This document shows positions 17,065-46,030 of a stretch of 64,000 bases of DNA, one piece after another. The position numbers and the translations under genes were made by a program. The stretch comes from Aureisphaera galaxeae (GTDB lineage Bacteria > Bacteroidota > Bacteroidia > Flavobacteriales > Flavobacteriaceae). How positions within the stretch are numbered: the stretch's first letter is position 1; each line of letters begins with the position of its first letter. The notes beneath the pieces are model-generated. The model worked only from the letters and a program-made list of their open reading frames with translations. It made no database searches and was not told the origin of the DNA. The stretch spans positions 558,001 through 622,000 of the forward strand of contig NZ_JAQQTF010000004.1 in the NCBI RefSeq assembly GCF_028561275.1. The letters are read 5' to 3'.

Positions 17065-17190
17065 GGTTCCGGGTTCAAGGTTGATTTGTTGATGGGTTGA
17101 TTCGTTGAATTGTTTAACCGCTGAATCGTTTAACTGTTTAGTTGACTGGTTTTACATTTGAAATTTTACATTTTTCTGTTTAAAGGTTCT
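17065..17190 (+). repeat. Repeat module A: degenerate 8-bp tandem repeats with conserved flanks
   Basis: Six bases after the FHA stop codon the tract begins with GGTTCCGGGTTCAAGG, then eight consecutive octamers from 17081 to 17144 (TTGATTTG, TTGATGGG, TTGATTCG, TTGAATTG, TTTAACCG, CTGAATCG, TTTAACTG, TTTAGTTG), then GGTTTTACATTTGAAATTTT and GTTTAAAGGTTC. The same left and right flanks recur at 19990-20120 and 21655-21735. It is not coding. Confidence 0.8.
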
Positions 17191-17287
17191 AGGCCCATTT
17201 GTTTCCCTAAATGAAATCACTTCTTCACTCAATTGCGATGGGACGGAATGTTGGAAAGAGGTAGTTTTACTTTGTCAAAGAAAACCA

Positions 17288-18886
17288 ATGAAGGCAGTAG
17301 CATTATTTTCCATTTTACTTAGTGTATCCATTTCTTTCGGTCAAAATCATTTGAGCCGAGAATACTACGTATTCCACGATTCAATTATCACATCCCTAAA
17401 GAAAGAGTTTAAACTTTCTGAACACGATCAACCTTCCGAACTGATCATTTTTAATAACGATACCTTAATTCTTGCTGGGTATTTGGATGATCTTAAGTTG
17501 CACCCAAGTTATGATTACCCCAATAACGTCATCTATAAAACTGAGGATGGAGGTGAAAATTGGAAGAAAATAAAATTCGATGGAGACGCCTGGATATATG
17601 ATGCTTTTTATTTCGAAAATGGATTGATCTGGATGGGAGGGTCGGATCACTATGTTCATTTTTCCGATGATTATGGTGAAACATGGACTAAAAAGCCTAT
17701 ACCCATTACACCTACTGAAAGGGTACATTCCCTATATATGAAAGATTCAATAAGCGGAATAGCTGGAGGACTATCGGGAGGCTTGGCAATTACAGAAAAC
17801 AATTGGAAAACCACAGAACAGATAGAGACTCCGTTAATGCAGCGAAAATATGAATCGACTAAAGAAGCTGCCGGAATTCGTATTGAAAATCTACTATGGC
17901 TTGAGGATATCATTCTTGTGAATCAAGCCGATCGTATTTTCTATACCTACCGAGATAAAATAGAATGGAGAACATTCAATATTCCTGTGAGTTCATTTCA
18001 ATTTATTGAAGAAGAAAAGCATATTAAGATTAGAAGCATTGGCGATAGGGTATTTGTACTTGACGATAAGCTAAATCTTGTTAAAACTTACCCAGAAGAA
18101 CATATCTGGTTTTCAATTAAGGAGAATGAAGGCGAAATTGACTTTGGCAGTTTTAAATCGGATGAGATTGCTTCCCTAAAAATTGAATCGACAGAATGGT
18201 TTTTTGATAGGCCTGGCTATCACATGTCTCCCGATGTATACAAGCCAAAAACGCAATCCATTCTTTTCGAAGACCACAATGGGAAGCTCAAAGTGAAAAC
18301 CAAACGGTATAGAAAGAGCAAGGTTCCTAGTTTTAGTTTTGATAGGGTATCTCAGCTTTTGGTTTCTTCAGAATTGAATTATAGCATCAATAGACTACCA
18401 GTTGATTTGAATTTCAATGACGGAGACTTGAGCGATTATTGGAAATACTTTAATAATGAAAAATCGGAATTGAAAGGTGATTTCTCTTATCATTTAGATA
18501 TAAACAATCCTTCATTTAATCATCCTAAGGAGGTAGTGGATTCACATGACCATAATCATGTCTTAAAGATATTCAGAGATGCCTATATGCCTGGAAATGC
18601 TTTTAGCTTGTTTCCCAACAATCCTGAAATCACGATTACCATTAAAGATACGTATGGACAGGAATTGATTCTTTCCAATAAACATTCTTTCTTGTATTCC
18701 CTTCCCTGGACGGTTTCTTTTCAAAACACAGAGATTACTTTGTATAATCCCAAAATAACGCAGTTTGTGAAGTCGGTACTACCTTCAGATTTCTATAACT
18801 ATGAAAAATTACAAGGAGGTAAGTTGATCTATCTTTTGATTCGGAAAAAAATAATCGACGGATTGAAATATGAGAAAGGAGGATAA
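17288..18886 (+). CDS. Secreted beta-propeller protein with Asp-box repeats
   Basis: The 532-residue protein has a signal peptide (MKAVALFSILLSVSISFG). Two clear BNR/Asp-box motifs, YKTEDGGENWKKI near residue 80 and HFSDDYGETWTKK near 122, mark a sialidase/Ycf48-like propeller covering about the first 280 residues. The C-terminal 180 residues have no recognisable domain. There is no T9SS sorting domain, so it probably stays periplasmic or associates with the outer membrane. No catalytic Arg triad of true sialidases was identified. It is alone between a repeat tract and the next gene. Function unknown. Confidence 0.75.
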   Translation: MKAVALFSILLSVSISFGQNHLSREYYVFHDSIITSLKKEFKLSEHDQPSELIIFNNDTLILAGYLDDLKLHPSYDYPNNVIYKTEDGGENWKKIKFDGDAWIYDAFYFENGLIWMGGSDHYVHFSDDYGETWTKKPIPITPTERVHSLYMKDSISGIAGGLSGGLAITENNWKTTEQIETPLMQRKYESTKEAAGIRIENLLWLEDIILVNQADRIFYTYRDKIEWRTFNIPVSSFQFIEEEKHIKIRSIGDRVFVLDDKLNLVKTYPEEHIWFSIKENEGEIDFGSFKSDEIASLKIESTEWFFDRPGYHMSPDVYKPKTQSILFEDHNGKLKVKTKRYRKSKVPSFSFDRVSQLLVSSELNYSINRLPVDLNFNDGDLSDYWKYFNNEKSELKGDFSYHLDINNPSFNHPKEVVDSHDHNHVLKIFRDAYMPGNAFSLFPNNPEITITIKDTYGQELILSNKHSFLYSLPWTVSFQNTEITLYNPKITQFVKSVLPSDFYNYEKLQGGKLIYLLIRKKIIDGLKYEKGG

Positions 18887-18996
18887 TAGTTTCCATCCAA
18901 CCATCTAGTATTCCTCCTCAAAAATCTGCGGGAAATACGTATTTCGGGTAGCCCCTTTTTTCTATAATTTGGGCATGAATTCAATGCTACAATATT

Positions 18997-19968
18997 ATGA
19001 GTCAACCTACTTACATTTCTTATCATAAAGATTTTCAAAGAGTTATTGGGGATCATTACAGTTATAAGACCCTCGTAAAAACCAACGCCCATGAAGGTCC
19101 GGTATATTTTAGAAATACCAATGAACTGTATTTTACCACAGTTCCGGAAACCATTAATATTCCCATAGAAGGCTATAAAAAAGTATCCATTAAAAAGGTG
19201 TGTCTTGGAGATGGGAACAAAATTGAGACCGTACGGGAAACGAGCAATATGGCCAATGGAATGACCATAGACTTAGCTGGGAATCTTATCATATGCGAAC
19301 AGGGGACCAAAAGTTCCCGGGCAGGGATTAGCAGATTAAAAATAGGGGAGGACACGCCCAAAATGTTGGTGGATGAATGGTTTGGCCTGCCATTGAATTC
19401 TACAAATGACGTGGTCGTGAAAAAAGATGATGGGAGTATTTGGTTCACCGATCCAGCCTATGGCTATGCTCAGGGATTTAAGAATCCGCCGCTTGTAGGT
19501 AATTTTGTATACCGATACGATACACAAAACGATCAACTTGCGGTTGTGGCCGATTCGTTTAAGCGACCTAATGGATTGGCTTTTTCACCCAAACAAGACA
19601 AGCTGTACATAACCGATAGTGGAGCAACTGTGGGAGACGACACGCCTTACGATGTTAATGCGCCACATCACATAAAGGTGTTCGATATCATGGAAGGTAG
19701 ATTTCTTTGTAATGAACGCCTATTTGCTGTGGTTACGCCAGGCATTCCCGACGGGATTAAAGTGGACACTGAGGGAAGGGTATATTCCTCCTCAGCATCG
19801 GGTGTAAAAGTGTATACTGCCGAAGGTACTCTATTAGGTGAGATTTTAGCGAAAGGAGTGGCTAATTTCTGTTTCGGGGGTAAGGATAACAACATATTGT
19901 ACGTCTGTGTGGATACTGCCATTATTGAAGTTCAACTAGCTGCTGTTGGAGCGAATGATTATAATTAG
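18997..19968 (+). CDS. SMP-30 / gluconolactonase-type protein
   Basis: The 323-residue protein has the six-bladed propeller signatures of the SMP-30/gluconolaconase/LRE family: MANGMTIDLAGNLIICEQGT, DVVVKKDDGSIWFTDPAYGY, RPNGLAFSPKQDKLYITDSG and GIPDGIKVDTEGRVYSSSAS. Metal-binding Asn and Asp candidates (N in PLNSTNDVVV, D in ITDSG / GIPDG) are present. It would hydrolyse a sugar lactone in the cytoplasm, since there is no signal peptide; the real substrate is not known. The coding region ends at 19968 and runs straight into a repeat tract of almost 1 kb. Confidence 0.9.
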   Translation: MSQPTYISYHKDFQRVIGDHYSYKTLVKTNAHEGPVYFRNTNELYFTTVPETINIPIEGYKKVSIKKVCLGDGNKIETVRETSNMANGMTIDLAGNLIICEQGTKSSRAGISRLKIGEDTPKMLVDEWFGLPLNSTNDVVVKKDDGSIWFTDPAYGYAQGFKNPPLVGNFVYRYDTQNDQLAVVADSFKRPNGLAFSPKQDKLYITDSGATVGDDTPYDVNAPHHIKVFDIMEGRFLCNERLFAVVTPGIPDGIKVDTEGRVYSSSASGVKVYTAEGTLLGEILAKGVANFCFGGKDNNILYVCVDTAIIEVQLAAVGANDYN

Positions 19969-20175
19969 TAGACAGTGGCAGTAGGCAGTCACAGTTTACA
20001 GTTTCGGTTAGCGGGTTTCGGGTTGAAGGTTGATTGGTTTAGTTGTTGAATCGTTTAATTGATGAGTTCCCCGGTTTTACATTTGAAATTTTGCATTTTT
20101 CGGTTTAAAGGTTCCGGGTTCAAGGTTGATGTGTTCAATTGTTTAATTGTTGAGTTGTTGAATTGATTCTTATTA
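19969..20175 (+). repeat. Repeat module B: mixed 7- and 8-bp period tract
   Basis: Directly after the SMP-30 stop, a heptamer-like stretch (AGTAGAC, AGTGGC, AGTAGGC, AGTCAC, AGTTTAC) leads into the conserved flank GGGTTTCGGGTTGAAGGTTG, degenerate octamers, GGTTTTACATTTGAAATTTT, then a second GGTTCCGGGTTCAAGG with octamers TTGTTTAA, TTGTTGAG, TTGTTGAA. It is therefore one and a half copies of module A, ending where the TCATCAC array begins. Not coding. Confidence 0.8.
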
Positions 20176-20180
20176 CTTTT

Positions 20181-20807
20181 CACTCATCACTCATCACTCA
20201 TCACTCATCACTCATCACTCATCACTCATCACTCATCACTCATCACTCATCACTCATCACTCATCACTCATCACTCATCACTCATCACTCATCACTCATC
20301 ACTCATCACTCATCACTCATCACTCATCACTCATCACTCATCACTCATCACTCATCACTCATCACTCATCACTCATCACTCATCACTCATCACTCATCAC
20401 TCATCACTCATCACTCATCACTCATCACTCATCACTCATCACTCATCACTCATCACTCATCACTCATCACTCATCACTCATCACTCATCACTCATCACTC
20501 ATCACTCATCACTCATCACTCATCACTCATCACTCATCACTCATCACTCATCACTCATCACTCATCACTCATCACTCATCACTCATCACTCATCACTCAT
20601 CACTCATCACTCATCACTCATCACTCATCACTCATCACTCATCACTCATCACTCATCACTCATCACTCATCACTCATCACTCATCACTCATCACTCTTCA
20701 CTCTTCACTCATCACTCATCACTCATCACTCATCACTCATCACTCATCACTCATCACTCATCACTCATCACTCATCACTCATCACTCTTCACCTCTCACT
20801 CTTCACT
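20181..20807 (+). repeat. TCATCAC heptamer array, about 88 copies
   Basis: Over 600 bp consist of head-to-tail TCATCAC units with almost no variation; exceptions are TCTTCAC units near 20695-20708 and in the last 25 bp. As 7 is not a multiple of 3, all three plus-strand frames give the same rotated heptapeptide (LITHHSS) without stops, while all minus frames hit TGA. The long open frame here is thus a by-product of the repeat. It lies between SMP-30 and the exported methyltransferase gene. Copy number is likely unstable. Confidence 0.97.
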
Positions 20808-20929
20808 TTTACAACCTATTTTTCAAGCTGTTCACCTTGCCAGTGATCCCGATAATTCTAAACAATTGGTTAAATATTGTTAATGGCTGCTCGTTTTTTG
20901 TTAAATTACGCTGGAAAAAGAAACACCCC

Positions 20930-21640
20930 ATGAAAAGGATTGCCCCAACCCTGTACTTCATTGTTATTGTTTTATTACCCATTTTAAGCGTTGCCCAAGA
21001 GGATTATGTCCTCCGAGAAGGTGATCCCGATGGTATTGGAAAATGGTATATGCAACGGGAAATAGCCCGGGTTATGGATGCTTCTGCCATGGATTGGCTA
21101 GAACGGCCAGAGCGCTCACGAGAAGAAAATACCGCCTTGTTAATGATGAATTTAAGGATTCGTCCAGATGATACTATTGCCGATATTGGTGCTGGTTCGG
21201 GCTATCATGTTTTTAGAATGGCTCCACGGGCCACAAACGGACATGTATACGCTGTGGACATTCAGGATGAGATGCTTCAGGCGATCAAAGAAAAGCAAGA
21301 GAATGGTGATGTGACGAATGTATCGACCGTAAAGGGGACAGAGAAAAGCGTGAATCTACCTGAAAATTCGGTGGATAAAATACTCATGGTCGATGTGTAT
21401 CATGAATTCAGTTTTCCGAAAGAGATGATGGCTTCCATACAAAAGGCCTTACGTCCCAACGGTAAAATATATCTTATCGAATACCGTGAAGAAGATCCCT
21501 ATGTTCCTATTAAAAAACTACACAAAATGAGCGAGGAGCAAGCAGTTGCAGAAATGGAAGCTGCAGGATTTCAGTTGCTAAGAAATATCAATAACCTACC
21601 ATGGCAACACTGTATGATCTTTGTGAAAGAGCGCTTTTAA
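20930..21640 (+). CDS. Exported class I SAM-dependent methyltransferase
   Basis: The 236-residue protein starts with a signal peptide-like segment (about residues 1-24, ending ILSVAQ), followed by a class I methyltransferase fold. Motif I is IADIGAGSGYHVFRMA at about 83-98, an acidic residue ends strand 2 (HVYAVDIQDEM), and motif IV is ILMVDVYHEF. The ATG at 20930 is chosen because it starts the hydrophobic segment; an ATG-less upstream extension is in the repeat. Methyltransferases need cytoplasmic SAM, so export is puzzling: the segment may instead be a membrane anchor. Substrate unknown. The 3' flank again carries module-A-like repeats. Confidence 0.82.
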   Translation: MKRIAPTLYFIVIVLLPILSVAQEDYVLREGDPDGIGKWYMQREIARVMDASAMDWLERPERSREENTALLMMNLRIRPDDTIADIGAGSGYHVFRMAPRATNGHVYAVDIQDEMLQAIKEKQENGDVTNVSTVKGTEKSVNLPENSVDKILMVDVYHEFSFPKEMMASIQKALRPNGKIYLIEYREEDPYVPIKKLHKMSEEQAVAEMEAAGFQLLRNINNLPWQHCMIFVKERF

Positions 21641-21650
21641 TAACAGCTTA

Positions 21651-21740
21651 GCGGGTTCTGGGTTCAAGGTTAATGAGTTGATTCGTTGAGTTGTTTAATC
21701 GTTGAGTTGACCAGTTTCACATTTTTTGGTTTAGATTTTC
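21651..21740 (+). repeat. Repeat module C: degenerate 8-bp tandem repeats
   Basis: Ten bases after the methyltransferase stop, GCGGGTTCTGGGTTCAAGG leads into TTAATGAG, TTGATTCG, TTGAGTTG, TTTAATCG, TTGAGTTG, then a shortened right flank (AGTTTCACATTTTTTGGTTTAG). It is the third diverged copy of module A. Confidence 0.75.
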
Positions 21741-21814
21741 ATAGCATGGACTCCGAGTGAGCCGACTGAAAGGAGGATTGCATCGAGGAGTCAATTTAGG
21801 TTTTCGGGTATTTT

Positions 21815-21867
21815 CAGTTAGCAATTAGCAATTAGCAGTTAGCAGTTAGCAGTGACAGTTTTCAGTC
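21815..21867 (+). repeat. Degenerate AGCAGTT/AGCAATT heptamer tract
   Basis: Units CAGTTAG, CAATTAG, CAATTAG, CAGTTAG, CAGTTAG, CAGTGAC follow each other with a 7-bp period and fade into GGGTTTCGGTTAGC, a phrase also found at 20003-20013. The rest of the 361-bp gap (21641-22001) contains no gene or hairpin terminator. Confidence 0.75.
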
Positions 21868-21976
21868 ATTAGGGTTTCGGTTAGCACATTCCTTATAGCT
21901 CGCCACCTTCAATACCAAATCATCAATCTGCAATCGTAAATGATCGATCAAAAACTGTAACATTTCCTAAATAGGG

Positions 21977-22000
21977 AGGTCTTTTTTCAAAAGCAGACCT
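21977..22000 (+). promoter_or_regulatory. Inverted repeat next to the S41 peptidase start
   Basis: AGGTCT (21977-21982) and AGACCT (21995-22000) form a 6-bp stem whose 3' arm ends one base before the ATG at 22002. It could restrict ribosome access or bind a regulator. Confidence 0.35.
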
Positions 22001-22001
22001 G

Positions 22002-23432
22002 ATGAAAACTAAGCTGGCCCTTCTCATGATCGTTTCGATCGTATTTGCTTCTTGTCAAGAAAAAAATCCAGAAAACAATTCTATCAATGGCGTATGGGAA
22101 TCTGTAGGATCGGGTTGGGTCCTTCAAATACAGGATAGCACCCAATATTCGTTATATGATATTACGGCAATATCATGTTTACCCTCGCGCAGTGCTGGAT
22201 TGAATGAAATTGAATCGGCCATATCCTTAGAAAACGATACACTTTCCTTTAAAAAGGGAGTGATGGAATATCAATTTACGCGTGCCGAAGATCTTCCCGA
22301 ATTGTGTGCCATATCCCTTTCCCCAACTCAAAAAATAGATCCCTTGTACAATTTCGAAGTGTTCGCTGCCACCGTAAAGGAGCACTATGCTTTTATGGAA
22401 CTCAACTCTTTGAATTGGGATGCCCTGTACCTTCAACAAAAAACGAAATTAAGTGAGGAATCCACCATGGCCGAGTTGTACACGGTTATAGAGGAAACAT
22501 TAGAACTTCTTAATGATAATCATGCATATTTGGAAGCTACCGATGAAGTTTATGAAATGTTAGCGGAGGAGGAAGAAGAGGAGGATAACGGCGAAGCGCC
22601 CTTAGAATATGGGGATTTCCAAGTAGCCAATTTGGTGGCAGGCCATCATATAGACGAGGACATGACCCAAGATTCTTGGTTAATGAAATGGGGCATTATG
22701 GACGATGATACGGGTTATGTCGTAGTAAAGGCGATGTGGTTATATGCCGATCTCAATATTCCGCAATCCCTTATAGATGAGGTAGGTTTTGTAGATGCTT
22801 ATGTGGAAACCTTTCATAAGATGGATGAAGGGAGTTATATAAAAAAGGAAGTCCAAGGAGTGACAAGTATTCTTGATAGGGCTATGAATGACCTTAAAGA
22901 CACGGAACAGATAATCATCGATATGCGCTTTAATGGCGGCGGGCAGGATGCCGTAAGCTTCGAAATTTTAAAGCGATTCAATCCAGAGAGAAGGCATGTA
23001 GTGACCACAAAACTTAAAACGGAGCAGGGGTATTCTTCAGAACAAAGGCTTTATTTAGACTCGACACCTAAAGCCTATACAAACCCAGTATTCGTATTAA
23101 CTTCCCAACAAACTGGAAGTGCAGCCGAAGCCTTTTCCATTTGCTCTATGGCGGTGCCTCATATGAAGCGCATAGGGACTCACACACAAGGTGCATTGTC
23201 CACTGCTCTGGAGAAGGCTTTGCCCAACGGATGGGTATTCTCAATTTCCAACGAGGTGTATATGGATACCAAAAACAATTCCTATGAAAACGTGGGCGTT
23301 CCCGTAGACTACGAAATCCCTTTCCCTAAAGATCGGCAATCTTTCTTCCGAAGTGTAGCGAACGATCTTGAGGAAGACAAAAAAAGGATTTTAAAGGCGA
23401 TTCGCCATGTAGGCCTCCAAGAACAAATCTGA
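22002..23432 (+). CDS. S41 family peptidase lipoprotein
   Basis: The 476-residue protein is a predicted lipoprotein: the signal ends in IVFASC, with Cys18 as lipid-attachment site. Residues about 120-470 match C-terminal-processing (S41) peptidases: helical cap region (FEVFAATVKEHYAFME), IIDMRFNGGGQDA, the nucleophile region TSQQTGSAAEAFS and IGTHTQGALSTALE. The Ser in TGSAA is the likely nucleophile. No PDZ domain is apparent, so it is closer to the tricorn/IRBP-like branch. An acidic run (EEEEEED) lies near residue 190. It would sit in the periplasm or on the outer membrane and cut unknown substrates. Confidence 0.9.
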   Translation: MKTKLALLMIVSIVFASCQEKNPENNSINGVWESVGSGWVLQIQDSTQYSLYDITAISCLPSRSAGLNEIESAISLENDTLSFKKGVMEYQFTRAEDLPELCAISLSPTQKIDPLYNFEVFAATVKEHYAFMELNSLNWDALYLQQKTKLSEESTMAELYTVIEETLELLNDNHAYLEATDEVYEMLAEEEEEEDNGEAPLEYGDFQVANLVAGHHIDEDMTQDSWLMKWGIMDDDTGYVVVKAMWLYADLNIPQSLIDEVGFVDAYVETFHKMDEGSYIKKEVQGVTSILDRAMNDLKDTEQIIIDMRFNGGGQDAVSFEILKRFNPERRHVVTTKLKTEQGYSSEQRLYLDSTPKAYTNPVFVLTSQQTGSAAEAFSICSMAVPHMKRIGTHTQGALSTALEKALPNGWVFSISNEVYMDTKNNSYENVGVPVDYEIPFPKDRQSFFRSVANDLEEDKKRILKAIRHVGLQEQI

Positions 23433-23505
23433 AGCCCTATTTTGTGAAATCTTAGGGAAAGAAAGCCTTGCGATATTGGTATCTTGTTTGGCCTAAGATA
23501 GTTCA

Positions 23506-24528
23506 GTGTTAAAACGTATCTTCATAATAGTTTGCTGTTTTTGTATGCCTGTATTACTGTGGGCACATCCATCATGGGGCATTGTGGTTGATGATGAGGG
23601 GAATATTTACTTTACAGATATTACCCATAACGAGAGAGGTTCTGTTTGGAAGTTAACCTCCGAAGGAGAACTTATACTGTTACTAGGCGATTTTCATGCC
23701 CATAATGTAAGTCTGGATGGCAATGGTAATTTGATTACAGCACATGGAGAAGGGACCCATACAATGGTTCGACTTTCTAAAACAGGAGAGATGGACACAT
23801 TGTACCATACCTTGGACCATAAAACTTTTTTTGGAGGCAATTGTGCGTATTCAAATAGTGAAGGAATTGTCTTTGGTATCGAAAAACGATTTTGGAAGAT
23901 TGACAAAGATGGCAACCGACAATCGGTAAGTGATCATGTTTTTGAATGGAATCAATCCATTTATGTAGACGATGACGGCAATTATTATGGTCCAGATATA
24001 GGTAAGGGCAATAGTAGTATTGTGAAGATAGAAGCATCCGGAAATGCCAAAACGATAGCCACAAACCTTATTTCTAAACAACCTTTTGACCCGCATAGTG
24101 ATGTATTATTGGGAATTACCAAAGATGATAAGGGTACTATATATGTTGCCGAGACCGCTGGACAGCGAATCCTGAAAATTGGGGAAGATACCTTAGTAGA
24201 AACCTTTTATGTTTCAGAAGCAGATTGGTTCCCAACGGGAATCGATTTTCATAACGGAAATGCTTTTATACTCGAATTCAAAACAAAAAACGGTCGGGCA
24301 GGTCCGAGGATTACCAAAGTAGGAGCCTCTGGAGAAGTGATAAGAATATTTGATTATGGCTCCTACGAAAAAAACAGGTCGAAACCCGTAGGCACACGTC
24401 ATGAAAAGAATAGAAATGGCTTTTGGCTTTATGTTGTTTTTGGTAGTTTTATATTCCTATTGTTATTTATTTGGGTTCGGGTTGCACGTTTTAAAAAACT
24501 TCGTTCCCTCCATGATGGTAACTATTAA
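23506..24528 (+). CDS. Exported NHL-type beta-propeller with C-terminal membrane helix
   Basis: The 340-residue protein has a signal peptide (residues 1-20, ending LLWA), then NHL/SMP-30-like propeller repeats: GIVVDDEGNIYFTDITHN, DGNGNLITAHGEGTH, YVDDDGNYYGPDIG and GITKDDKGTIYVAETAGQ. A membrane helix (WLYVVFGSFIFLLLFIWV) at about 309-326 is followed by a short basic tail, so the propeller is tethered in the periplasm. Only a GTG start (23506) fits the signal peptide. Enzyme or binding function is unknown. It follows the S41 peptidase by 73 bp on the same strand. Confidence 0.78.
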   Translation: MLKRIFIIVCCFCMPVLLWAHPSWGIVVDDEGNIYFTDITHNERGSVWKLTSEGELILLLGDFHAHNVSLDGNGNLITAHGEGTHTMVRLSKTGEMDTLYHTLDHKTFFGGNCAYSNSEGIVFGIEKRFWKIDKDGNRQSVSDHVFEWNQSIYVDDDGNYYGPDIGKGNSSIVKIEASGNAKTIATNLISKQPFDPHSDVLLGITKDDKGTIYVAETAGQRILKIGEDTLVETFYVSEADWFPTGIDFHNGNAFILEFKTKNGRAGPRITKVGASGEVIRIFDYGSYEKNRSKPVGTRHEKNRNGFWLYVVFGSFIFLLLFIWVRVARFKKLRSLHDGNY

Positions 24529-24548
24529 CTTTAAGTGTTTTTAAGTAG

Positions 24549-24950: not shown

Positions 24951-25102
24951 TTTCCCCCTTCAGGTTAACGCGTTGTTACTGAGTTCATAATATTTATCTA
25001 TAGTACTCCTATAGAGTAATAGACAAATATTGTGCGGTAAAACCGTAACAAAATCTCCACGCTTTTGGGTAACTTGGGTATGTAATTGAAAAATTATGTG
25101 TT

Positions 25103-25621: not shown

Positions 25622-25631
25622 GCCTTTTTCC

Positions 25632-26288: not shown

Positions 26289-26349
26289 TTTGTGTAATTT
26301 TATACTCTGTTTGTTAAACAAAATTATTGTGCTGCATGTTGCACAGTCT

Positions 26350-31344: not shown

Positions 31345-31380
31345 ACCTAAGAATCGGCCTTTCTAAACATCGATTGCACC

Positions 31381-31440
31381 ATTAATTCATTATCTCATTC
31401 AATCATTATCTCATTCAATCATTAACTCATTAAATCATTG
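31381..31440. repeat. Octamer tandem array overlapping the esterase stop codon
   Basis: Seven consecutive 8-bp units (ATTAATTC, ATTATCTC, ATTCAATC, ATTATCTC, ATTCAATC, ATTAACTC, ATTAAATC) and ATTG run up to the end of the convergent esterase gene; the esterase stop (31435-31437) lies inside the last unit. The period matches modules A-C, but the sequence differs. Confidence 0.85.
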
Positions 31441-36618: not shown

Positions 36619-36685
36619 GTACAGCAATTTAAGAGGTAGTCGAGCCTCACTGGCTTTACTAACACAATATAATCAATATATTGAG

Positions 36686-36719: not shown

Positions 36720-36751
36720 GGTTGGCTATCAAAAAAATCAGTTGGGGTCAT

Positions 36752-37273: not shown

Positions 37274-37404
37274 GACATTAAGATTTTAGGTTTGTTATTC
37301 CTAAAATAAGAAATACACTTTAAAATATCGATTAAAAGCATATTTATTCGATAAAATACCTAAATTTTGTAAGAATTTACGGATTTACCGCAGACGGGAA
37401 AGGG

Positions 37405-38169: not shown

Positions 38170-38172
38170 TGC

Positions 38173-38826: not shown

Positions 38827-38867
38827 CGTTGATGAATAATGCGTGAAAATACTACTTTCCAAATGAT

Positions 38868-41297
38868 CTACAAAGCAGGATCACTCTTACTGAAAAGATA
38901 TTTTACATTGTTGTAATCGATGAAATAAGTAATGCGCAGGGAAACGGTATGCTGTGTTGGCTCATTAAAAAGATTGCTCAAACTTTCAGTATAATTAAGT
39001 GTGGATTGTTCGTCCAGTTTAAAAATCTGATTTCGGTATAAGAGCGTCGCTTCACTTCCCGGAGCAAAACGCCAACGGAAACTTAAATCCAAATTCCAAA
39101 TATTAAAGTTTCTGTTGGGATCGTTTTCTTCCACATCGTAATCGGTAAGGGAGCGGCTTCCATCTTCATTTAGTGTCCAAAAAATATCATCGCTATAATC
39201 GGCGATACTCCAGAAGTTTCGGAAGCGAAGATCGATGGCTTTGTAAGGATCGAAATTGTAGCTCGCCGTGATCTGGTTTTCCAAACTGCGAACATCCCGT
39301 TGCCCAAAGAAGATGTTTTCATCGTCGTTATCTATCCAACCGAACATATTGTTGCGAATGGATAGATCGGTGGAGAGGATGACCAAAAACCTATCGGAAA
39401 AACGATAGCGTGGCGAAATATCCATAAAATATTGCCTTTGCGGTTCATCGAACGCCTGTCTGTGTCCTACGCCAATGTCGTAGGCAAACTTTTTCCGGTA
39501 ATCTGAAGAGCACCACAATCTTCCTCCTAAGTTACGAGGAAACTCTACAAAGCGTCCTTCTACACGGGGCTCGAAATAATCCTTGTTCTTGGAATTGTAC
39601 CCCAGAAATCCACCAAAAGCAAAGCGCTCTTTGGTTGCAAAAAACCAATTGGCGTTTATATTGTTCCCGGTTTCTACACTAGGTTGATATAAACGTCTAT
39701 GGCGCACCGTAATTCCCACACGATAGGTGTTAAACCACTCGGTGGGTTCAAAGATTTGGTAGGAAGCACCCGCTACAAAATTGTTGAAGTTGTTTCGAAA
39801 GTTAAGTCCAAGGTCATTAATGTCGAGAGTGGTATTGGCAAAGTCATGTCCCACACGGTATCTAAAATTCCCTTTGATTCTAAAAATGTCCAATTCCGAC
39901 TGAAAACCAGTTTCCCATCCTTCGGCTCTATGGACATTGCTTACAATCGCCCGTCCCGATGAACGAAAGTTATTGCCCTTATCGGCCACGTCGAATACAA
40001 AGGCAGAGGTATTGGCATCGCGGAAATGTCCGTCACGTGTTACATTGGTGTTTATAAGGGATATGGAGGAGTTTCCATTAAACTGTTGGTCCAACACAAA
40101 GATATTGTAATTGGCCAGAGGCTCTACCAAAACGTCCCTTACATTGCCAGAAATGGTATCGGTAACCTTAGCATAGGTCTTTTCGGTCACAGCGTTAAAG
40201 AATCCGATGCCCAGTTTGTCCTTGGTCCTTCCAGAAATCTTAAGGGCATTCAACAAGTTTACTTTTGAAGGGTATTCTGAAACCTCTTCGTTTTCTGCCA
40301 ATTCACCTACATCACCAGTAGGTGCATTGCCCACCCTTCGTGAAAAGAAGATACGTCCTTTGTTGAAGAGATCGATTCCTTCCGTAAAAAACTGTCGTTG
40401 CTCCGAAAAGGTCTGCTCAAAAGGTCCTAGGTTCAACCGGACTTCGTCAAAAGCCGCTTGTCCAAAGTCTGGGATAAGCGTCGCATCCAATGTAAAACTA
40501 TCGCTCAATCCATACTTAATGTCCATTCCGGCAGTAAAGTCGGTTTCGGTCTCTCCGTCGATACTCGTCACTACACCTTGTGCAAAAGGGAAGAGGGTTA
40601 GTCGAACTGGAGGATCAATATTGCTTACCCCAGTGACATTTCCACTGTATTGGGATTCGTTTCCTTGGGTATTATCGATAAAGTTCCAGGTGTGGGTTTC
40701 GTTCTTTGTATTGATACGTCGGTAAAAGTTCACACCCCAATCCTGTACGTCTACTTCTGGGAATCGAAGGGCATTGTAGGGAATCCTAAATTCTGCATAC
40801 CAGCCTTTGTCATCTTGCGATACACGGCATTCGAACACCACGTTATAGCTAAAATCGAAATCGTTCTGGGTAGAAAGGGCATCGCCAATGGTCCCCGCGC
40901 TGGTCACAAAAAAATGGGTTTCATTAATCCCATCGTTGTATGTATTGAGTGCTACGGCAAAATGATCGGCTTGCACAAATACTTCATCCCGTTGGGAAAA
41001 CTGTCTTAGGATGTTTTCTGGGTCGGGATCGTACATATAGGCAGCAACATAGACGTTCTTATCATCATATGCCATTTTCACCTCGGTCTGATACGCTGAA
41101 TCTACCGTTCCTTCATTACCGGGCTGATACATATTGAAATCACCATAAGCCGTTAAGGATTGCCAAACTTCATCGTCTAATTCACCGTCTATTTTGGGAG
41201 GATTGGATATACGCTTGGCTTCTAGAGTTTTCTTTTCCTGTGAGTAGTTGATGGTAGACACAAAAAGAAAGGGCAATAGCAGGAAAAGATATTTCAT
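38868..41297 (-). CDS. DUF5916 outer-membrane protein with CBM9-like domain
   Basis: The 809-residue protein has a signal peptide ([19 protein letters not shown]), an N-terminal carbohydrate-binding family-9-like domain (about 28-215; [49 protein letters not shown]) and a long C-terminal part with alternating strands expected to form an outer-membrane barrel (DUF5916; [29 protein letters not shown]). It ends in strand-like [13 protein letters not shown]. It may bind or import glycans; the ligand is unknown. It probably heads the lolD/TIGR02757 transcript. Confidence 0.92.
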
Positions 41298-41413
41298 ATA
41301 TTGGTAGTAAGCTGTTAGTGTTTCGGCGGTAAAAGTAAAAGTCTCCCAAAAGGCGCGGTATTAACGAAAAGTTAAATACATGGGAGAATGTTAAATCCGT
41401 GATTTTTTAACAT

Positions 41414-41421
41414 TAACTTTG
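41414..41421 (+). promoter_or_regulatory. Bacteroidota -7 promoter box (TAACTTTG)
   Basis: TAACTTTG matches TAnnTTTG, 11 nt before the msrA start at 41432; GTTAAAT about 20 bp upstream is a weak -33 candidate. Confidence 0.6.
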
Positions 41422-41431
41422 GATTATCTTA

Positions 41432-41974
41432 ATGAAAAGCACAGAAAAAATTGTATTCGCAGGCGGGTGTTTTTGGTGCACCGAAGCCGTTTTCCAGAGA
41501 ATAGAAGGAGTAGAAACAGTGGTTTCCGGATATACCGGAGGCACGATCAAGAATCCAGCTTACCGAGAGGTCTGTACGGGTAGAACCGGGCATGCCGAAG
41601 GAATCCTTCTCACCTACGATCCCAATGTGGTCGATATCAATACTTTATTGGAAGTACACTTTGCCACACACGATCCAACGACTTTAAATAGACAGGGGAA
41701 CGATGTGGGAACGCAATATCGTAGTGAAATTTTCTATACCACCAAGGAACAAAAAGAAGCTTCGGAAGCTTTCATAAAATTACTTACCGATAACAAGGTA
41801 TTTAAAGATCCTATTGTTACACCAGTGACCCCATTGGATGTGTTTTATGAAGCCGAAGAGGACCATCAGAATTACTACAACGGGAATAAAGACCAACCGT
41901 ACTGTAGTTTTATCATTACACCAAAGGTGGAAAAGATCAAAAAATATTATTCAGAAAAATTAAAAACCAATTAA
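41432..41974 (+). CDS. msrA: Peptide-methionine (S)-S-oxide reductase
   Basis: The 180-residue cytoplasmic enzyme repairs oxidised methionine (S-epimer) using thioredoxin. The active-site motif [11 protein letters not shown] gives catalytic Cys13 and Cys16. [31 protein letters not shown] and YHQ-like EEDHQNYY further on are all typical. Length is normal for MsrA without an MsrB domain. The stop codon overlaps the folE ATG by one base (TAATG), indicating translational coupling. Confidence 0.96.
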
Positions 41975-42573
41975 TGGGATCATATCGTTTTTATGAGGAA
42001 TATAATGAAGAGGTTACCGACGACCTTAAGGAGAAATATCTCGAAATCCTGAAAGATGTAGGGGAGGATGTAGAGCGCGAAGGGATTGTAAAAACCCCAG
42101 AGCGTGCGGCCAAGGCCATTCAGTTTCTTACGTCGGGACATTGTCAGGATCCAGCAGAAATCTTGAAAGGAGCCATGTTTGCCGAAGATTATAATGACAT
42201 GGTAATTGTAAAGGATATCGAACTGTATTCCCTTTGCGAACATCATATATTACCGTTCTTCGGAAAGGCGCATATTGCTTACATTCCCGATGGACATATC
42301 GTAGGGCTTAGCAAAATCCCAAGGGTGGTAGATGTATTTGCCAGAAGACTCCAGGTGCAGGAACGATTAACACATGACATACTAGAATGCATAAATGACA
42401 CGTTAAAACCTAAAGGCGTGGCAGTTGTGATCGAAGCTTCACACATGTGTATGATGATGCGTGGGGTTCAGAAACAGAATAGTGTGACTACAACATCTGG
42501 ATTTCGAGGGCAATTTGAGAAGATTGAAACCCGAAATGAGTTCCTAAAATTGATAAGCACGGACCTCGCCTAA
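41974..42573 (+). CDS. folE: GTP cyclohydrolase I
   Basis: The 199-residue enzyme converts GTP to 7,8-dihydroneopterin triphosphate, the first step of folate (and pterin) synthesis, as a homodecamer. Zinc ligands are in place: Cys88 and His91 in [12 protein letters not shown] and Cys159 in [28 protein letters not shown] and [20 protein letters not shown] are the classic signatures. It is the zinc-dependent IA type. It is coupled to msrA and followed 52 bp later by a small membrane protein gene. Confidence 0.97.
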
Positions 42574-42625
42574 ACTTGGCAAGCTTATTGCTTATATTTA
42601 GAAGAAATTAAACCTGCTTAATTAG

Positions 42626-42931
42626 ATGAAAAAAGACAAATACAAATTATTAAGAAGAGGAGTCCTTTACGATCTTGTAGGTGCTGCTACCTACTTTATT
42701 CCTGTAGTGGGACCTTTTCTAGACATCGTCTGGGCCCCTTATGCTGCTAAAAAGATGAGTGAAATGTATGAAGGCAATACGGGAAAAATCGCCTCGGTGA
42801 TTGTATTCTTGGAAGAGATCCTTCCTTTTACGGATTTCATTCCGACCTTTACGCTCATGTGGCTATACACCTTCGTGTTTGCCAAGGCAGATAAGGCCGT
42901 ACAAACGATTGAAGTAGAAGTAAACGAATAA
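42626..42931 (+). CDS. Small membrane protein of unknown function
   Basis: The 101-residue protein is basic at the N-terminus (KKDKYKLLRRG) and has two or three hydrophobic segments: YDLVGAATYFIPVVGPFLDI, IASVIVFLEEILPFTDFIPT and FTLMWLYTFVFA. The acidic tail is VQTIEVEVNE. It is expected in the inner membrane. No domain was recognised. It probably belongs to the msrA-folE transcript, which a strong terminator ends directly afterwards. Confidence 0.75.
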   Translation: MKKDKYKLLRRGVLYDLVGAATYFIPVVGPFLDIVWAPYAAKKMSEMYEGNTGKIASVIVFLEEILPFTDFIPTFTLMWLYTFVFAKADKAVQTIEVEVNE

Positions 42932-42936
42932 AAAAT

Positions 42937-42964
42937 AGCCCCGAATATCGGGGCTTTTCTTTTT
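42937..42964 (+). terminator. Rho-independent terminator
   Basis: A perfect 8-bp stem AGCCCCGA / TCGGGGCT with a 3-nt loop (42937-42955) is followed by TTTCTTTTTT. It lies 6 bp after the small membrane protein gene and before a convergent gene. Confidence 0.9.
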
Positions 42965-42993
42965 TATATTCCTTATTGCAGTTCGCGAAAAAA

Positions 42994-43302
42994 TTATTGG
43001 GCTTTTCTTACCAAGAATCCCAATCCCATACCGCGTAGCATCTTTTTTTCAAAGTTCCAAAAGAAAGCATACTCTCCAAAGAGCCAACCAAAGAACACCA
43101 ATAGCACTTGATAAATGGGAAGAATGATAAGAATCCTAACGGGCCAATAGATATACCAACCCATTTCCCTGGTAATACCAACGGCATCGGTTAAGGGACC
43201 TGCAAACTTTGCTGAGGTACTTCCTGTGATGGCAAAAACAATAAAAATGACCGTAAGTTGCCAGTTGGAGGTAATGCCCCAACGTTGTTTGAGTTTATTC
43301 AT
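42994..43302 (-). CDS. DUF6787-like membrane protein
   Basis: The 102-residue protein has two membrane helices (about 16-35 and 49-75), with conserved-looking RWGITSNWQLTVIFIVFAIT, GSTSAKFAGPLTDAVGI and a final FWNFEKKMLRGMG. The family is known only by sequence in Bacteroidota. It follows the DUF6146-like lipoprotein gene by 6 bp on the same strand, an association I recall as common in flavobacteria. No function is known. Confidence 0.78.
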   Translation of the reverse strand: MNKLKQRWGITSNWQLTVIFIVFAITGSTSAKFAGPLTDAVGITREMGWYIYWPVRILIILPIYQVLLVFFGWLFGEYAFFWNFEKKMLRGMGLGFLVRKAQ

Positions 43303-43308
43303 AGTTTG

Positions 43309-43746
43309 TTATCCTCTGCTAATTCCCCGACTTCCCGGGAGGTTTTGATTGTACCGTTGTTGAAAATAAAGGAAGTAATTGTACAGTAGGTAATTTACTT
43401 CGTATCCATAATCGATATTGAACTCATAGTTAATCTCCTGCTGGTACAGATTTCTGTCGAACTGCTGGAAATTCATGACTCTTCGGTTGTATTCGATCAC
43501 GAACTGTTGATTTTTACGTTCCAAAAAGTCTTGCCCGTAATACCCTCTAGGGTATTGAGTAACTAACCAGGAATTAAATCCGGGATCAATGATAATGATT
43601 TCATATTCCAACTCATCGTTGGCAATTCTAACGGTATCATTGGCAGCTTCGGCGACGGCTTCACTATCTTTCTGTACGACCGATTTAGAACTATCGCAGC
43701 TGGCAAAGGTGAGGATACAAATGAGAATGATTGCAAAATACTTCAT
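43309..43746 (-). CDS. DUF6146-like lipoprotein
   Basis: The 145-residue protein is a predicted lipoprotein (signal ILICILTFASC, Cys17). The conserved-looking domain has IIDPGFNSWLVTQYPRGYYG near 53-72, then RKNQQFVIEYNRRVMN and a Tyr/Asn-rich strand region ending in FQQRYNQNLPGSRGISRG. It likely sits in the periplasmic face of a membrane. Cotranscribed with the DUF6787-like gene. Function unknown. Confidence 0.8.
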   Translation of the reverse strand: MKYFAIILICILTFASCDSSKSVVQKDSEAVAEAANDTVRIANDELEYEIIIIDPGFNSWLVTQYPRGYYGQDFLERKNQQFVIEYNRRVMNFQQFDRNLYQQEINYEFNIDYGYEVNYLLYNYFLYFQQRYNQNLPGSRGISRG

Positions 43747-43820
43747 AGCTCACGTTTTATGTTATAAAGTTATGAAAACGCCCTGTTTTTGAGCGTGTTT
43801 TAACTGTGTTTAACAAAAAA

Positions 43821-43848
43821 TGTGCCTTAAACTCGCGTCTAAGGCACA
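43821..43848 (-). terminator. Rho-independent terminator
   Basis: A perfect 9-bp stem TGTGCCTTA / TAAGGCACA is followed on the minus strand by TTTTTTG. It ends the DUF937 gene transcript. Confidence 0.85.
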
Positions 43849-43873
43849 TCATTATACTTCGCAATGTATAATG

Positions 43874-44512
43874 TTATCTTCCAAAGAGTCCGCCTAGCAG
43901 TCCGCCAAGGCCTCCGCTCTTTTTATTGCCGCTTAATAGCATTCCTGCCACATCATCGATCACACTACCATCGTTGTCACCATCTAAGAGGGACTCAATT
44001 AAGCTTTGTTGTTTGGGTTGGTTTCTTCCGCCACCCATAAGTCCGCCGAGTAAATCACCAATACCCGCCTGACTATTCACATTCTGTTGTCTTTGTTGTT
44101 TTCCTAAATACCCAAGTAGGATAGGGGCGGCTACCTTTAAAATATTCATGACCGCTCCAGAATCCATCCCCGATTTATTGGAAAGGGCATTGGCTACATT
44201 GTTTTGTGAACCGCCCAAAACATGTCCTAATATCCCCATTCCATCATCCTTAACGGCTTGGTCTACACCGCCTCCAAAAAGGCCACCAAGGTTGTCTAAA
44301 ATGCTTCCGTCGTGCTTTCCATTAAGGGCTCCTAAAAGTCCAGCAGCACCTTCCGGAGTAGAGGCGTTACGCTTCATGGCTCCCATAAGAATGGGAAGCC
44401 CCATTTGTAATACCGAAGCTGTTTTATCTACGGGCTGATTGGTTTCACTACTAACACCACTAATAATTTGGCGTCCTGCTTCACTGTTCAATAAATCAAG
44501 TATACCTGACAT
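43874..44512 (-). CDS. DUF937 family protein
   Basis: The 212-residue protein matches DUF937 (YidB-like): LLNSEAGRQIISGVSSETNQ, then VLQMGLPILMGAMKRNASTP, a Gly-rich linker (GGLFGGGVDQAVKDDGMGIL), VLGGSQNNVANALSNKSGMD and KVAAPILLGYLGKQQRQ, with a Gly/Leu-rich C-terminus (GGLGGLLGGLFGR). No signal peptide is present. The fold is helical with two similar halves. Function is unknown. It lies 52 bp downstream of serA. Confidence 0.9.
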   Translation of the reverse strand: MSGILDLLNSEAGRQIISGVSSETNQPVDKTASVLQMGLPILMGAMKRNASTPEGAAGLLGALNGKHDGSILDNLGGLFGGGVDQAVKDDGMGILGHVLGGSQNNVANALSNKSGMDSGAVMNILKVAAPILLGYLGKQQRQQNVNSQAGIGDLLGGLMGGGRNQPKQQSLIESLLDGDNDGSVIDDVAGMLLSGNKKSGGLGGLLGGLFGR

Positions 44513-44564
44513 GCTCTTTACGTTTTTTGGTTATTTCCTAAAGGTAGGAAAAGTTAGAAACAAT

Positions 44565-45515
44565 TTAGCTGAGCAAAGAAATTATTTGACTCGCCAATTC
44601 GGTTCCAATTCGGTCTTGTGCCTCTTTGGTAGCAGCACCAATATGAGGGCTTAAGGAAACCTTTCCGTTCATAAGTACTTTAATAGCTGGAGTGGGTTCC
44701 GCTTCAAAAACGTCCAATCCAGCAAAGGATAGTTTGCCGTCTTCCAATGCATCCAATAGAGCCACTTCATCGATCACGCCACCTCGTGCCGCATTGATCA
44801 AAGCCGCACCTGGCTTCATTTGCCCTAGTTCGCTTTTTCCAATCACATAATCCTTTTGGGCAGGGACGTGTAGCGTTACGAAATCACTCTGTTTCAACAA
44901 TTCGTTCAGTTCCATGTGCTGGAAAGAGAAAGACACCTGCTGTCCGTCGAAGAATTGTACATCGATGCTCGCATTTTCCACATAGCTATCGCTATAAATA
45001 ACTCGCATTCCAACTCCCAATGCAATTTTGGCTACTTCTTGTCCAATACGGCCAAAACCAATAATACCCATGGTTTTTCCACGAAGTTCTACACCACCGG
45101 CATAGCTTTTCTTTAAGTCTTTAAATTTGGTATCTCCTTCTAAGGGCATGTTGCGGTTGGCATCGAACAAAAACCGAACACCACCATACAAGTGGGCAAA
45201 TACCAATTCGGCCACAGATGCAGAAGATGCAGCTGGAGTATTAATTACATGCAATCCTTTTTCGCGTGCGTAGTCCACATCTATATTATCCATTCCTACA
45301 CCTCCACGTCCGATCAATTTTAGATTGGGACATGCATCGATGATATCCTTTCTCACTTTGGTAGCACTGCGTACCAAGATTCCATCAATGTTTTCGTCAT
45401 TGATGTAATTGATTAATTGCTCTTGAGCTACTTTCGTTGTAATCACTTCGAAACCACCAGTGGTAAGGGCATCAACTCCGCTTTGTGAGATTCCGTCGTT
45501 TGCTAGTATTTTCAT
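44565..45515 (-). CDS. serA: D-3-phosphoglycerate dehydrogenase-type 2-hydroxyacid dehydrogenase
   Basis: The 316-residue enzyme has the D-2-hydroxyacid dehydrogenase fold. The NAD-binding motif is MGIIGFGRIGQEVAKIALGV, with Arg/Glu/His catalytic residues in LINAARGGVIDE, AGLDVFEAEP and LSPHIGAATKEA. Its position beside serC, and its short form without ACT domains, point to phosphoglycerate oxidation, the first step of serine synthesis. A broken four-helix-bundle gene and repeat tracts separate it from serC. Confidence 0.93.
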   Translation of the reverse strand: MKILANDGISQSGVDALTTGGFEVITTKVAQEQLINYINDENIDGILVRSATKVRKDIIDACPNLKLIGRGGVGMDNIDVDYAREKGLHVINTPAASSASVAELVFAHLYGGVRFLFDANRNMPLEGDTKFKDLKKSYAGGVELRGKTMGIIGFGRIGQEVAKIALGVGMRVIYSDSYVENASIDVQFFDGQQVSFSFQHMELNELLKQSDFVTLHVPAQKDYVIGKSELGQMKPGAALINAARGGVIDEVALLDALEDGKLSFAGLDVFEAEPTPAIKVLMNGKVSLSPHIGAATKEAQDRIGTELASQIISLLS

Positions 45516-45520
45516 TGTCA

Positions 45521-45569
45521 GTTTTAAGTTTTAAGTGCTAAATTTTAAGTTATAAGTACTTGGTTCAAC
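45521..45569. repeat. Heptamer tract GTTTTAA-type, seven units
   Basis: Consecutive 7-bp units GTTTTAA, GTTTTAA, GTGCTAA, ATTTTAA, GTTATAA, GTACTTG, GTTCAAC fill the gap between the serA start and the broken four-helix-bundle gene. Period is exact, sequence degenerate. Confidence 0.75.
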
Positions 45570-45610
45570 TTATTGGTCTTGATTCTTACATTCTCCAAAA
45601 GTCTTTATAA

Positions 45611-45948
45611 CTAAAGATTTTGTTGACTTGTTTTTACAATTTTTGTCAATATTTTTATGATCTGTTCTATTTCGTTTAGATATGGCTTCATATCTGCTCG
45701 AATTATCTTTCCTTTTTCAATCAATCGTAACCAGTATCCGGTTTCTCGAGCTTCCTTTGAAGCAATCGCCATTTTGGCAATAAAATCTTTTTTGTTTTGT
45801 CCCGCACCTGCTTCATCACATACGTTGGCTCCAATACTAGTAGCAGATCTTAGAAGCTGATCAGCAAAGACGTATTCTTTATGTTCTCTAAGCAGTTTTA
45901 CCAGTTTAATTACGCTAAGTGAAAATTCAAAGCTATTTCCTCAATCAT
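45611..45948 (-). pseudogene. Four-helix-bundle (S23/bAvd-like) protein gene with a frameshift
   Basis: Reading the minus strand from 45931, 106 open codons end at TAG 45611: FEFSLSVIKLVKLLREHKEY, FADQLLRSATSIGANV, CDEAGAGQNKKDFIAKMAIA and SKEARETGYWLRLI are diagnostic of the PF05635 four-helix-bundle family (23S rRNA intervening-sequence protein / bAvd). The natural start ATG at 45948 with MIEE is in another frame; one extra A in the AAA at 45938-45936 would restore MIEENSFEFSL. Without it no ATG, GTG or TTG opens the frame before residue 50. Either the gene is dead, or the assembly has an indel. It is bracketed by two different heptamer arrays. Confidence 0.8.
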
Positions 45949-45970
45949 TTATCCTAATTCAACATTTTAA

Positions 45971-46030
45971 CACTCAACACTCAACACTCAATACTCAACA
46001 CTCAACACTCAACACTCAACACTCAACACT
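45971..46030. repeat. CACTCAA heptamer array, 8.6 copies
   Basis: Eight units of CACTCAA (one reads TACTCAA) plus CACT run without a break and stop 4 bp before the serC stop codon. The unit differs by one base from the CACTCAT rotation of the large array at 20181. Confidence 0.95.

Follow-up and report, generated by a model that had tools for sequence, protein, structure and literature searches.

In rRNA, intervening sequences (IVSs) have been described that carry an S23 open reading frame (ORF) bordered by complementary sequences and that are cut by RNase III (PMC4990558). Tandem heptamers have been reported as GGGAATC in Xanthomonas and GGGGA(C/T)T in Nostoc (PMC4692102), and as TAACTGA in Beggiatoaceae, Cyanobacteria, and Bacteroidetes (PMC4679880). 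The present analysis concerns a 64,000-nucleotide stretch of the Aureisphaera galaxeae genome (hereafter, the window; C14:558001-622000 of a 4.59 Mb genome), in which a sequence-only reading had noticed six tracts of 7- or 8-bp tandem repeats. On the evidence of the sequence, two of these tracts, 45521-45569 and 45971-46030, flank a PF05635 gene as the arms of a single cassette; PF05635 is the S23 or intervening-sequence protein (IVP) family. The combined reading, in which an S23 cassette with matched heptamer or octamer arms would form an IVS-like RNA stem and the tracts without S23 would be relics or relatives of such cassettes, is considered moderately probable.

The cassette resembles the 23S rRNA IVS with an S23/IVP ORF in that a PF05635/TIGR02436 ORF lies between complementary stem-forming ends, which are predicted here, and in having a stem-loop in a transcribed region and a sporadic distribution (PMC4990558). 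Unlike the IVS, the present cassettes are located at junctions of protein genes, and their stems consist of 7/8-bp arrays with units varying by copy. As the copies of this genome lie outside rRNA genes, they were not classified as rRNA IVSs, merely as elements that may work like one.

Heptamer arrays are reported to be over-represented among long simple sequence repeats (LSSRs) in many bacteria, with no accepted origin or role. The short tandemly repeated repetitive (STRR) sequences and heptamer LSSRs share with the present tracts the tandem 7-bp intergenic units, variable copy number, polarity, and pairing; a period of 8 bp also occurs here. The G-rich heptamers of Xanthomonas and Nostoc are reported to be closer to the ORF on their 5′ side, whatever the ORF orientation, and two Xanthomonas genomes held 70 and 75 convergent (inverted) pairs (PMC4692102). 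Thus, heptamer polarity and inverted pairing are not new in themselves. The present tracts differ from these repeats in their many different units and in the matched pairs around an S23 gene. The main text of PMC4692102 contains none of the terms S23, four helix, and intervening sequence, PMC4679880 contains neither S23 nor four helix, and no description of a link between S23 and heptamers was found in the open-access papers searched. Besides this link, the diversity of units and the scars described below were not found in print. Moreover, the matched arms of a defined gene family provide a testable frame for part of the heptamer arrays.

S23 cassettes and their matched arms

The cassette of the window and its neighbouring gene comprise the following features.

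45521..45569, no strand assigned: S23-cassette arm beside the phosphoglycerate dehydrogenase (PGDH)-like (serA-like) gene; 3′ arm in the S23 sense, of AGTTTTA/AGTGCTA type on the plus strand
45611..45937, minus strand: S23 / 23S rRNA intervening-sequence protein gene, four-helix bundle (TIGR02436, E 7e-27; PF05635, E 6e-21)
45971..46030, no strand assigned: S23-cassette arm beside serC; 5′ arm in the S23 sense, AACACTC on the plus strand
44565..45515, minus strand: phosphoglycerate-dehydrogenase-like gene; start codon 5 bp from tract 45521-45569

The arms were evaluated on 74 Flavobacteriaceae S23 genes, namely, 4 from this genome, 30 loci from a family-wide search, and, from the listed hits that came without a locus, the first 40. 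The hits were chosen by score; thus, site frequencies are not unbiased. Flanks or arms of 150 bp were used for a control of 1337 genes, 100 bp for the same-genome and acyltransferase-site comparisons, and 80 bp for a control of 194 genes and the permutations. The S23 start was taken as the nearest in-frame ATG or else the match start, which affected rows L165 and L166. By eye, all four PF05635 matches of this genome carried G/T-type repeats on one side and A/C-type repeats on the other; one of these copies (L166) does not reach the family cut-off, and its arms were not matched by the automatic procedure.

A lag of 7 or 8 bp was the best in at least one 80-bp flank of 70/74 S23 genes compared with 29/194 gap-matched co-directional controls (Fisher 1e-35), and in both flanks of 29/74 compared with 2/194 (Fisher 2e-16). 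Another lag was the best in 3/74 upstream and 3/74 downstream S23 flanks, and no lag passed in 21 and 22, respectively. Under the looser control with 150-bp flanks, either flank was periodic in 175 and both in 6 of the 1337 genes, compared with 70/74 and 31/74 for S23.

Moreover, the two arms of a cassette matched each other in inverted orientation. Across the 74 genes, the arm match of own pairs was 14.57 compared with a permuted mean of 9.32, and the maximum of 5000 permutations was 10.51. Among 29 phylum-wide Bacteroidota loci (3 of the same family), the inverted match was 13.29 compared with 8.29 after permutation (maximum, 10.17), and 24 of the loci were periodic in either flank. Within the 20 genomes holding two or more copies (47 cassettes), arms scored 15.59 against their own partner and 9.99 against those of other copies. 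This differs from a classical transposon, in which one terminal repeat is found in all copies.

The predicted RNA duplex of the arms was -31.3 kcal/mol for own partners and -22.3 kcal/mol for random partners (20 each), with the own duplex being lower in 66/74 cassettes. In the predicted minimum free energy fold of the minus strand RNA, the two arms of the window pair into one stem enclosing S23, and at least 10 arm-arm pairs were predicted for 53/74 cassettes compared with 61/231 genes of similar size. Upstream arms contained G at 0.243 and C at 0.058, downstream arms C at 0.216 and G at 0.065, and background intergenic and flank DNA 0.13-0.15 of each. Self-folding of the arms was weak, with means of -2.7 (upstream, n = 26) and -1.4 (downstream, n = 22) kcal/mol per 40 nt compared with -4.1 for 300 random intergenic pieces.

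The S23 copy of the window is probably decayed because no in-frame ATG, GTG, or TTG lies upstream of the profile match and the frame is shifted near the N-terminus relative to the G008 copy (by eye). Structures of S23 relatives were found as 2gsc (E 1e-29) and 2rld (E 9e-5); two designed proteins returned by the structure search at E above 0.003 are likely chance matches.

The upstream gene was co-directional with S23 in 97/103 cassettes (the 74 and the 29 combined), opposite in 4, and not called in 2, and the median gaps around S23 were 52 bp upstream and 44 bp downstream. In this genome, S23 was located at serC-PGDH, at the junction after clpP (L163), and at ffh-folD (L164), none of these three sites lying inside an rRNA gene. 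The largest site cluster, a fadB-like/acyltransferase junction (named on L169), included 32 of the 81 cassettes with a called downstream gene. The S23 family was detected in 113 of 149 sampled Flavobacteriaceae genomes. In the eight largest site clusters, S23 identity at one site across genomes was 0.53-0.76, compared with a mean of 0.42 within a genome (one pair at 0.81) and 0.44 for different sites overall. As same-site copies are closer to each other than copies within one genome, the cassettes appear to be mostly old residents rather than recent jumps.

Similar arrangements were observed outside Bacteroidota. Of 35 matching cyanobacterial plasmid records, 10 were fetched, and 7/10 S23 loci gave an inverted-match score of at least 15, with arm units such as GGGAACA/TGTTCCC and AAAAGGG/CCCTTTT. 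In three of the ten (L267, L270, and L273), S23 lies inside a cas operon, arranged twice as cas6-S23-cas4 and once as cas10-S23-Cmr3-family gene with gaps of 35-36 bp; a CRISPR survey also names the 23S rRNA IVP among the domains listed in one of its figure legends (PMC10910872). A Gemmatimonadota locus (L276) carried a C-rich heptamer array downstream with an inverted score of 29, its upstream side not being clean by eye. In Azospirillum (L277), inverted GAGGACG-type units were visible by eye, and the score of 7.0 was uninformative since the automatic start was misplaced. No match to S23 was found in phages or viral contigs, for which one query protein was searched. These distributions suggest that protein-gene junctions commonly harbour S23/IVP genes, which are known mainly from rRNA, and that some of these genes lie in cas operons.

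At three loci (L239, L250, and L262), arm-like repeats beside S23 apparently enter coding sequence, as judged by eye; there, cassettes may lie within reading frames or lengthen them.

Period, position, and polarity of the tracts

The other tracts of the window, none of which holds S23, were delimited as follows.

17080..17151, no strand assigned: octamer-type G/T-rich tract, units GTTGAATC/GTTTAACT, no S23
19969..20175, no strand assigned: left G/T-rich tract of mixed period 7/8, CAGTAGG and GTTGAATT types, no S23
20176..20807, no strand assigned: right A/C-rich TCACTCA array of about 90 copies, in the same intergenic region as 19969..20175
21651..21720, no strand assigned: left G/T-rich part of the 21641-22001 region; weak period by eye, no scan match
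21748..21792, plus strand: hairpin core GGACTCCGAG..ATCGAGGAGTC between tracts, resembling repetitive extragenic palindromic (REP) elements
21811..21855, no strand assigned: CAGTTAG/CAATTAG heptamer tract
31380..31439, no strand assigned: octamer tract CATTAACT/CATTATCT in a convergent intergenic region, no S23

A 227-aa ORF at 20163-20846 coincides with the TCACTCA array, from which it probably arises as an artefact.

All six tracts noticed by the sequence-only reading are present, but they vary in how exactly they keep the period, with lag identity ranging from 0.40 to 0.98. At lag 7, identity was 0.98 for 20176-20807, 0.96 for 45971-46030, 0.64 for 45521-45569, and 0.40 for 21651-21867, in which the clean repeat is restricted to about 21811-21855. 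Identity at lag 8 was 0.55 for 17065-17190 and 0.71 for 31381-31440, the latter reaching 0.89 at lag 16, while 19969-20165 showed 0.46 at lag 7 and 0.49 at lag 8. As that reading had stated, unit types differ from tract to tract at a constant period, and its gene names (FHA, SMP-30, methyltransferase, esterase [Abhydrolase_2], four-helix bundle, and serC) were supported by Pfam/NCBIfam. The labels serC and phosphoglycerate dehydrogenase (serA-like) have NCBIfam support, with the PGDH-like match lying below curated cut-offs, and the closest named relatives found for serC belong to Flavobacteriaceae or to unclassified Bacteroidetes. Its proposal of a process that keeps the period while the sequence changes agrees with the cassettes, whose units differ from one another and whose arms match within each.

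An even spread of periods over 5-12 bp had been named beforehand as contrary evidence; instead, 7 and 8 dominate the 1.6 Mb of this genome that was scanned. On 782 kb of C14, 23 period-7 tracts (23/23 intergenic) and 15 period-8 tracts (12 intergenic, 1 coding, and 2 mixed) were detected, compared with 0-2 intergenic tracts for each of the periods 4-6 and 9-13 and 0-0.4 tracts in order-3 Markov simulations of C14 intergenic DNA. Periods 14 and 16 were treated as harmonics of 7 and 8. The whole 1.6 Mb, which includes these 782 kb, contained 29 period-7 and 14 period-8 intergenic tracts, compared with 0-4 for other non-harmonic periods. Tract density was unequal, with 23 regions in C14 1-782 kb and 3 in C12 100-500 kb. 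In 80 loci of relatives (1.5 Mb around serC), the excess was weaker (12 period-7 and 5 period-8 tracts compared with 0-4 at other periods), and a tract was present in 11/80. A possible AGTNNNN unit grammar was noticed among the tract units. Stop codons in all frames as a cause of the period were dropped on reading the sequences, as cyanobacterial units such as GGGAACA contain no stops.

The statement that tracts lie always just 3′ of a gene was not borne out. Among 37 tracts between co-directional genes, the stop codon of the preceding gene was at most 45 bp away for 17 and the start codon of the following gene for 10, so the objection that tracts might be equally common upstream of genes applies in part. 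The tract at 45521-45569 itself is 41 bp from the stop of the four-helix-bundle gene and 5 bp from the PGDH-like start codon. The 3′ placement is largely explained by the arms occupying the space between consecutive genes. A role at 3′ ends or in termination also did not emerge as the common denominator; the shared traits are instead polarity, skewed composition, and, for 2/6 tracts, flanking of S23.

The polarity was pronounced. The left half on the plus strand was richer in G/T than the right half in 27/31 tract regions (p 3e-5), whatever the gene direction, compared with 198/362 tract-free regions of at least 150 bp. These 31 include a hold-out, C12 100-500 kb, with 3 tract regions only, in 2/3 of which the left exceeded the right, the third being equal at two decimals. 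In regions holding both tract kinds, the G/T type preceded the A/C type in 10/10, and 32/44 single tracts were on the expected side (20 A/C right and 12 G/T left). S23-free tract regions in two sets of relatives showed the polarity in 5/5. Thus, tracts tend to come as inverted halves.

These results bear on two other accounts. According to the first, the tracts would be 3′-end signals that terminate transcription of the upstream gene or stabilise its mRNA end. The tracts near stop codons are in line with it, as is their rarity between divergent genes (2/31 tract-bearing regions in the 1.6 Mb; 2/121 divergent compared with 18/234 co-directional regions when only those of at least 150 bp are considered), and few heptamer repeats between divergent ORFs are also mentioned in PMC4692102. 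Nevertheless, this account is very improbable, as 10/37 tracts lie within 45 bp of a start codon, the polarity is independent of gene direction, and S23 cassettes separate co-directional genes, of which the downstream one still has to be expressed.

According to the second, the tracts would be independent simple-sequence repeats produced by polymerase slippage with a 7-nt preference, a proposal of Mrazek and co-workers that is reported in PMC4679880 and PMC4692102, with S23 cassettes landing in or near these repeats. Heptamers are over-represented among long simple-sequence repeats in many genomes (PMC4679880, PMC4692102), and in this genome S23-less tracts outnumber S23 cassettes, as no PF05635 match lies in or within 300 bp of 29/31 tract regions. 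However, a cassette inserted into one array would be flanked on either side by units of one orientation, whereas matched inverted arms are the rule, and slippage leaves the 27/31 polarity and the 10/10 order unexplained. Accordingly, this account is judged improbable.

Tracts without S23

The origin of S23-less tracts was addressed at the serC-serA loci, where S23 was present in 4/92 and absent in 88/92. In the scar test, 54 S23-less serC-serA regions of at least 40 bp were each compared with the maximum of 60 shuffles. The 3′ end of S23 and/or the right arm was matched by L137, L114, L150, L136, and L153 with scores of 40.5, 39.0, 28.5, 26.5, and 22.5, compared with shuffled maxima of 17.5, 19.5, 18.5, 16.0, and 16.0, respectively; in L153, the recognisable remnant was limited to arm sequence. 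As read from these matches, S23 loss at serC-serA can leave the 3′ end of S23 and the right arm as a solo tract. Thus, solo tracts can be relics of cassettes. Three further regions (L118, L148, and L072) exceeded their shuffled maxima by 0.5-1.5 only, about the level of chance for 54 regions, and were not counted as scars.

By extension, the four S23-less tracts of the window, which have the period and, as a class, the polarity in common with the rest, may be relics or S23-less relatives of cassettes, several such regions bearing a REP-like hairpin core; this is the weakest step of the argument. A search of 9 related genomes for the FHA neighbour gave no homologue, a negative that carries no weight. 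The 21641-22001 region (361 bp), which has no S23 but does have tracts and a REP-like core, is short and tract-free in G003 of the same genus, a single comparison with divergent flanks; of four same-genus methyltransferase loci, only that of G003 has the same downstream gene (by eye).

An alternative for these regions is a palindromic miniature element of the type formed by REPs and REP-associated tyrosine transposases (RAYTs), i.e., a core with flanking tracts unrelated to S23. REP/RAYT elements likewise have intergenic hairpin cores (PMC3733652), and candidate short palindromic cores were picked out here by a fuzzy pattern match, with complementarity read by eye. The core GGACTCCGAG..TCGAGGAGTC gave 32 intergenic matches in 1.6 Mb, some of which may be chance given the fuzzy pattern, and its strand bias on C14 (21 plus and 5 minus) is consistent with such an element. 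Moreover, cores, as found by this pattern, and tracts co-occurred, with 10 regions of at least 150 bp having both, 12 the tract only, 12 the core only, and 350 neither (odds ratio 24, p 2e-8). On the other hand, the core and the tract are each also found alone, and between serC and serA the repeats enclose S23 in L131 and a different hairpin-like core in L118 (by eye). The genome also lacks the RAYT-type gene, as the Y1 transposase (PF01797) had 0 matches in a search that was positive in 5/14 control genomes. The REP/RAYT-type account of the S23-less regions is therefore possible but doubtful.

PF05635 also resembles Avd of diversity-generating retroelements (PMC10053308). Unlike such retroelements, the present cassettes occur in a genome with 0 matches to reverse transcriptase (PF00078), for which the same search was positive in 3/14 control genomes. 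Accordingly, both Y1 transposase and reverse transcriptase were rejected as drivers.

RNA stem or DNA hairpin

An IVS-like stem in the operon RNA is the most likely mechanism and, on modelled folding, the best supported, because the ends are complementary, their composition prevents self-folding, and the upstream gene is co-directional. The arms would form a long stem enclosing S23 in the operon transcript, as in an rRNA IVS, and by analogy the stem would let the insert be cut out or insulated in an RNase III-like manner; an rRNA IVS is excised by RNase III without religation. Selection on pairing would keep both arms complementary, while the skewed composition would prevent folding within either arm. 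Because the units are tandem, the arms could re-pair after slippage, so that the sequence could drift while the period and the complementarity stay.

Pairing energy does not separate RNA from DNA, and thus a DNA hairpin with template switching stays a live rival. Quasi-palindrome correction is template switching during replication. In such a DNA-level element, the arms would be degenerate terminal inverted repeats that are extruded as a hairpin and equalised by template switching, slippage would make the units, and RNA pairing would be a by-product. The matching of arms within, not between, the cassettes of a genome fits this account, as do the tract-free 21641-22001 counterpart in G003 and the existence of S23-less hairpins of like style, such as the S23-less intergenic region L352 466-593 with inverted heptamer arms (TAGCCTTTAGC / GCTAAAGGC; by eye). 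However, a symmetric element should land both ways unless orientation were selected afterwards, whereas the 97/103 co-directional cassettes are as expected of a transcript constraint. The old residence of S23 copies and the absence of PF01797 and PF00078 matches from the genome also argue against a DNA-level element, which is rather unlikely.

Several results weigh against the combined reading of IVS-like cassettes with relic tracts. With respect to the stem, pairing of the antisense strand was slightly better than that of the sense strand (-35.3 compared with -31.3 kcal/mol), so pairing energy gives no preference for RNA over DNA; the gap-matched size control for the fold had just 17 genes, of which 4 had at least 10 pairs. 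With respect to the arms, 4/74 S23 genes had no 7/8 tract in either flank, and the cyanobacterial loci L266, L270, and L272 had no inverted match, L270 looking direct. At the acyltransferase site, own arms scored 14.5 compared with 12.1 for the arms of other species and were the row maximum in 2/25; this modest advantage implies that much arm sequence is inherited there. Few inverted heptamer pairs are reported for Nostoc PCC 7120 (PMC4692102).

With respect to the S23-less tracts, no convincing S23 remnant was found by tblastn in 22 such tract regions of this genome (best E 0.012), and no match was seen between left and right halves in 23 tract regions, including the S23 cassette (self 10.6, cross 11.7). 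Tract regions numbered 1/192 in S23-free genomes (3 genomes, 400 kb) and 4/211 in S23-rich genomes (4 genomes, 400 kb), both small counts. Single tracts were on the wrong side in 12/44 (7 G/T right and 5 A/C left). With the long array left out, G/T tracts of this genome had 8.5% C and 28.0% G and A/C tracts 8.5% G and 23.2% C, a skew that is partly built in, as the classes were set by G+T content. Finally, the model gives no explanation of why the step is 7-8 bp.

A broader claim would take the heptamer and octamer arrays of Bacteroidota, Cyanobacteria, and perhaps Xanthomonas (STRR, TAACTGA, and GGGNATC types) collectively as arms of S23/IVP cassettes, whether still live, left solo, or decayed. 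A copying process, possibly guided by the S23 protein, would rebuild them on site, preserving the 7-8-nt step and the complementarity but not the sequence. In this general form the claim is speculative and unlikely.

Elsewhere in the window, irregular purine-rich repeats (AAAGAACAAA, AAAGAGAA) were observed at 50863-50991, near the start of the plus strand ORF 50774..52018.

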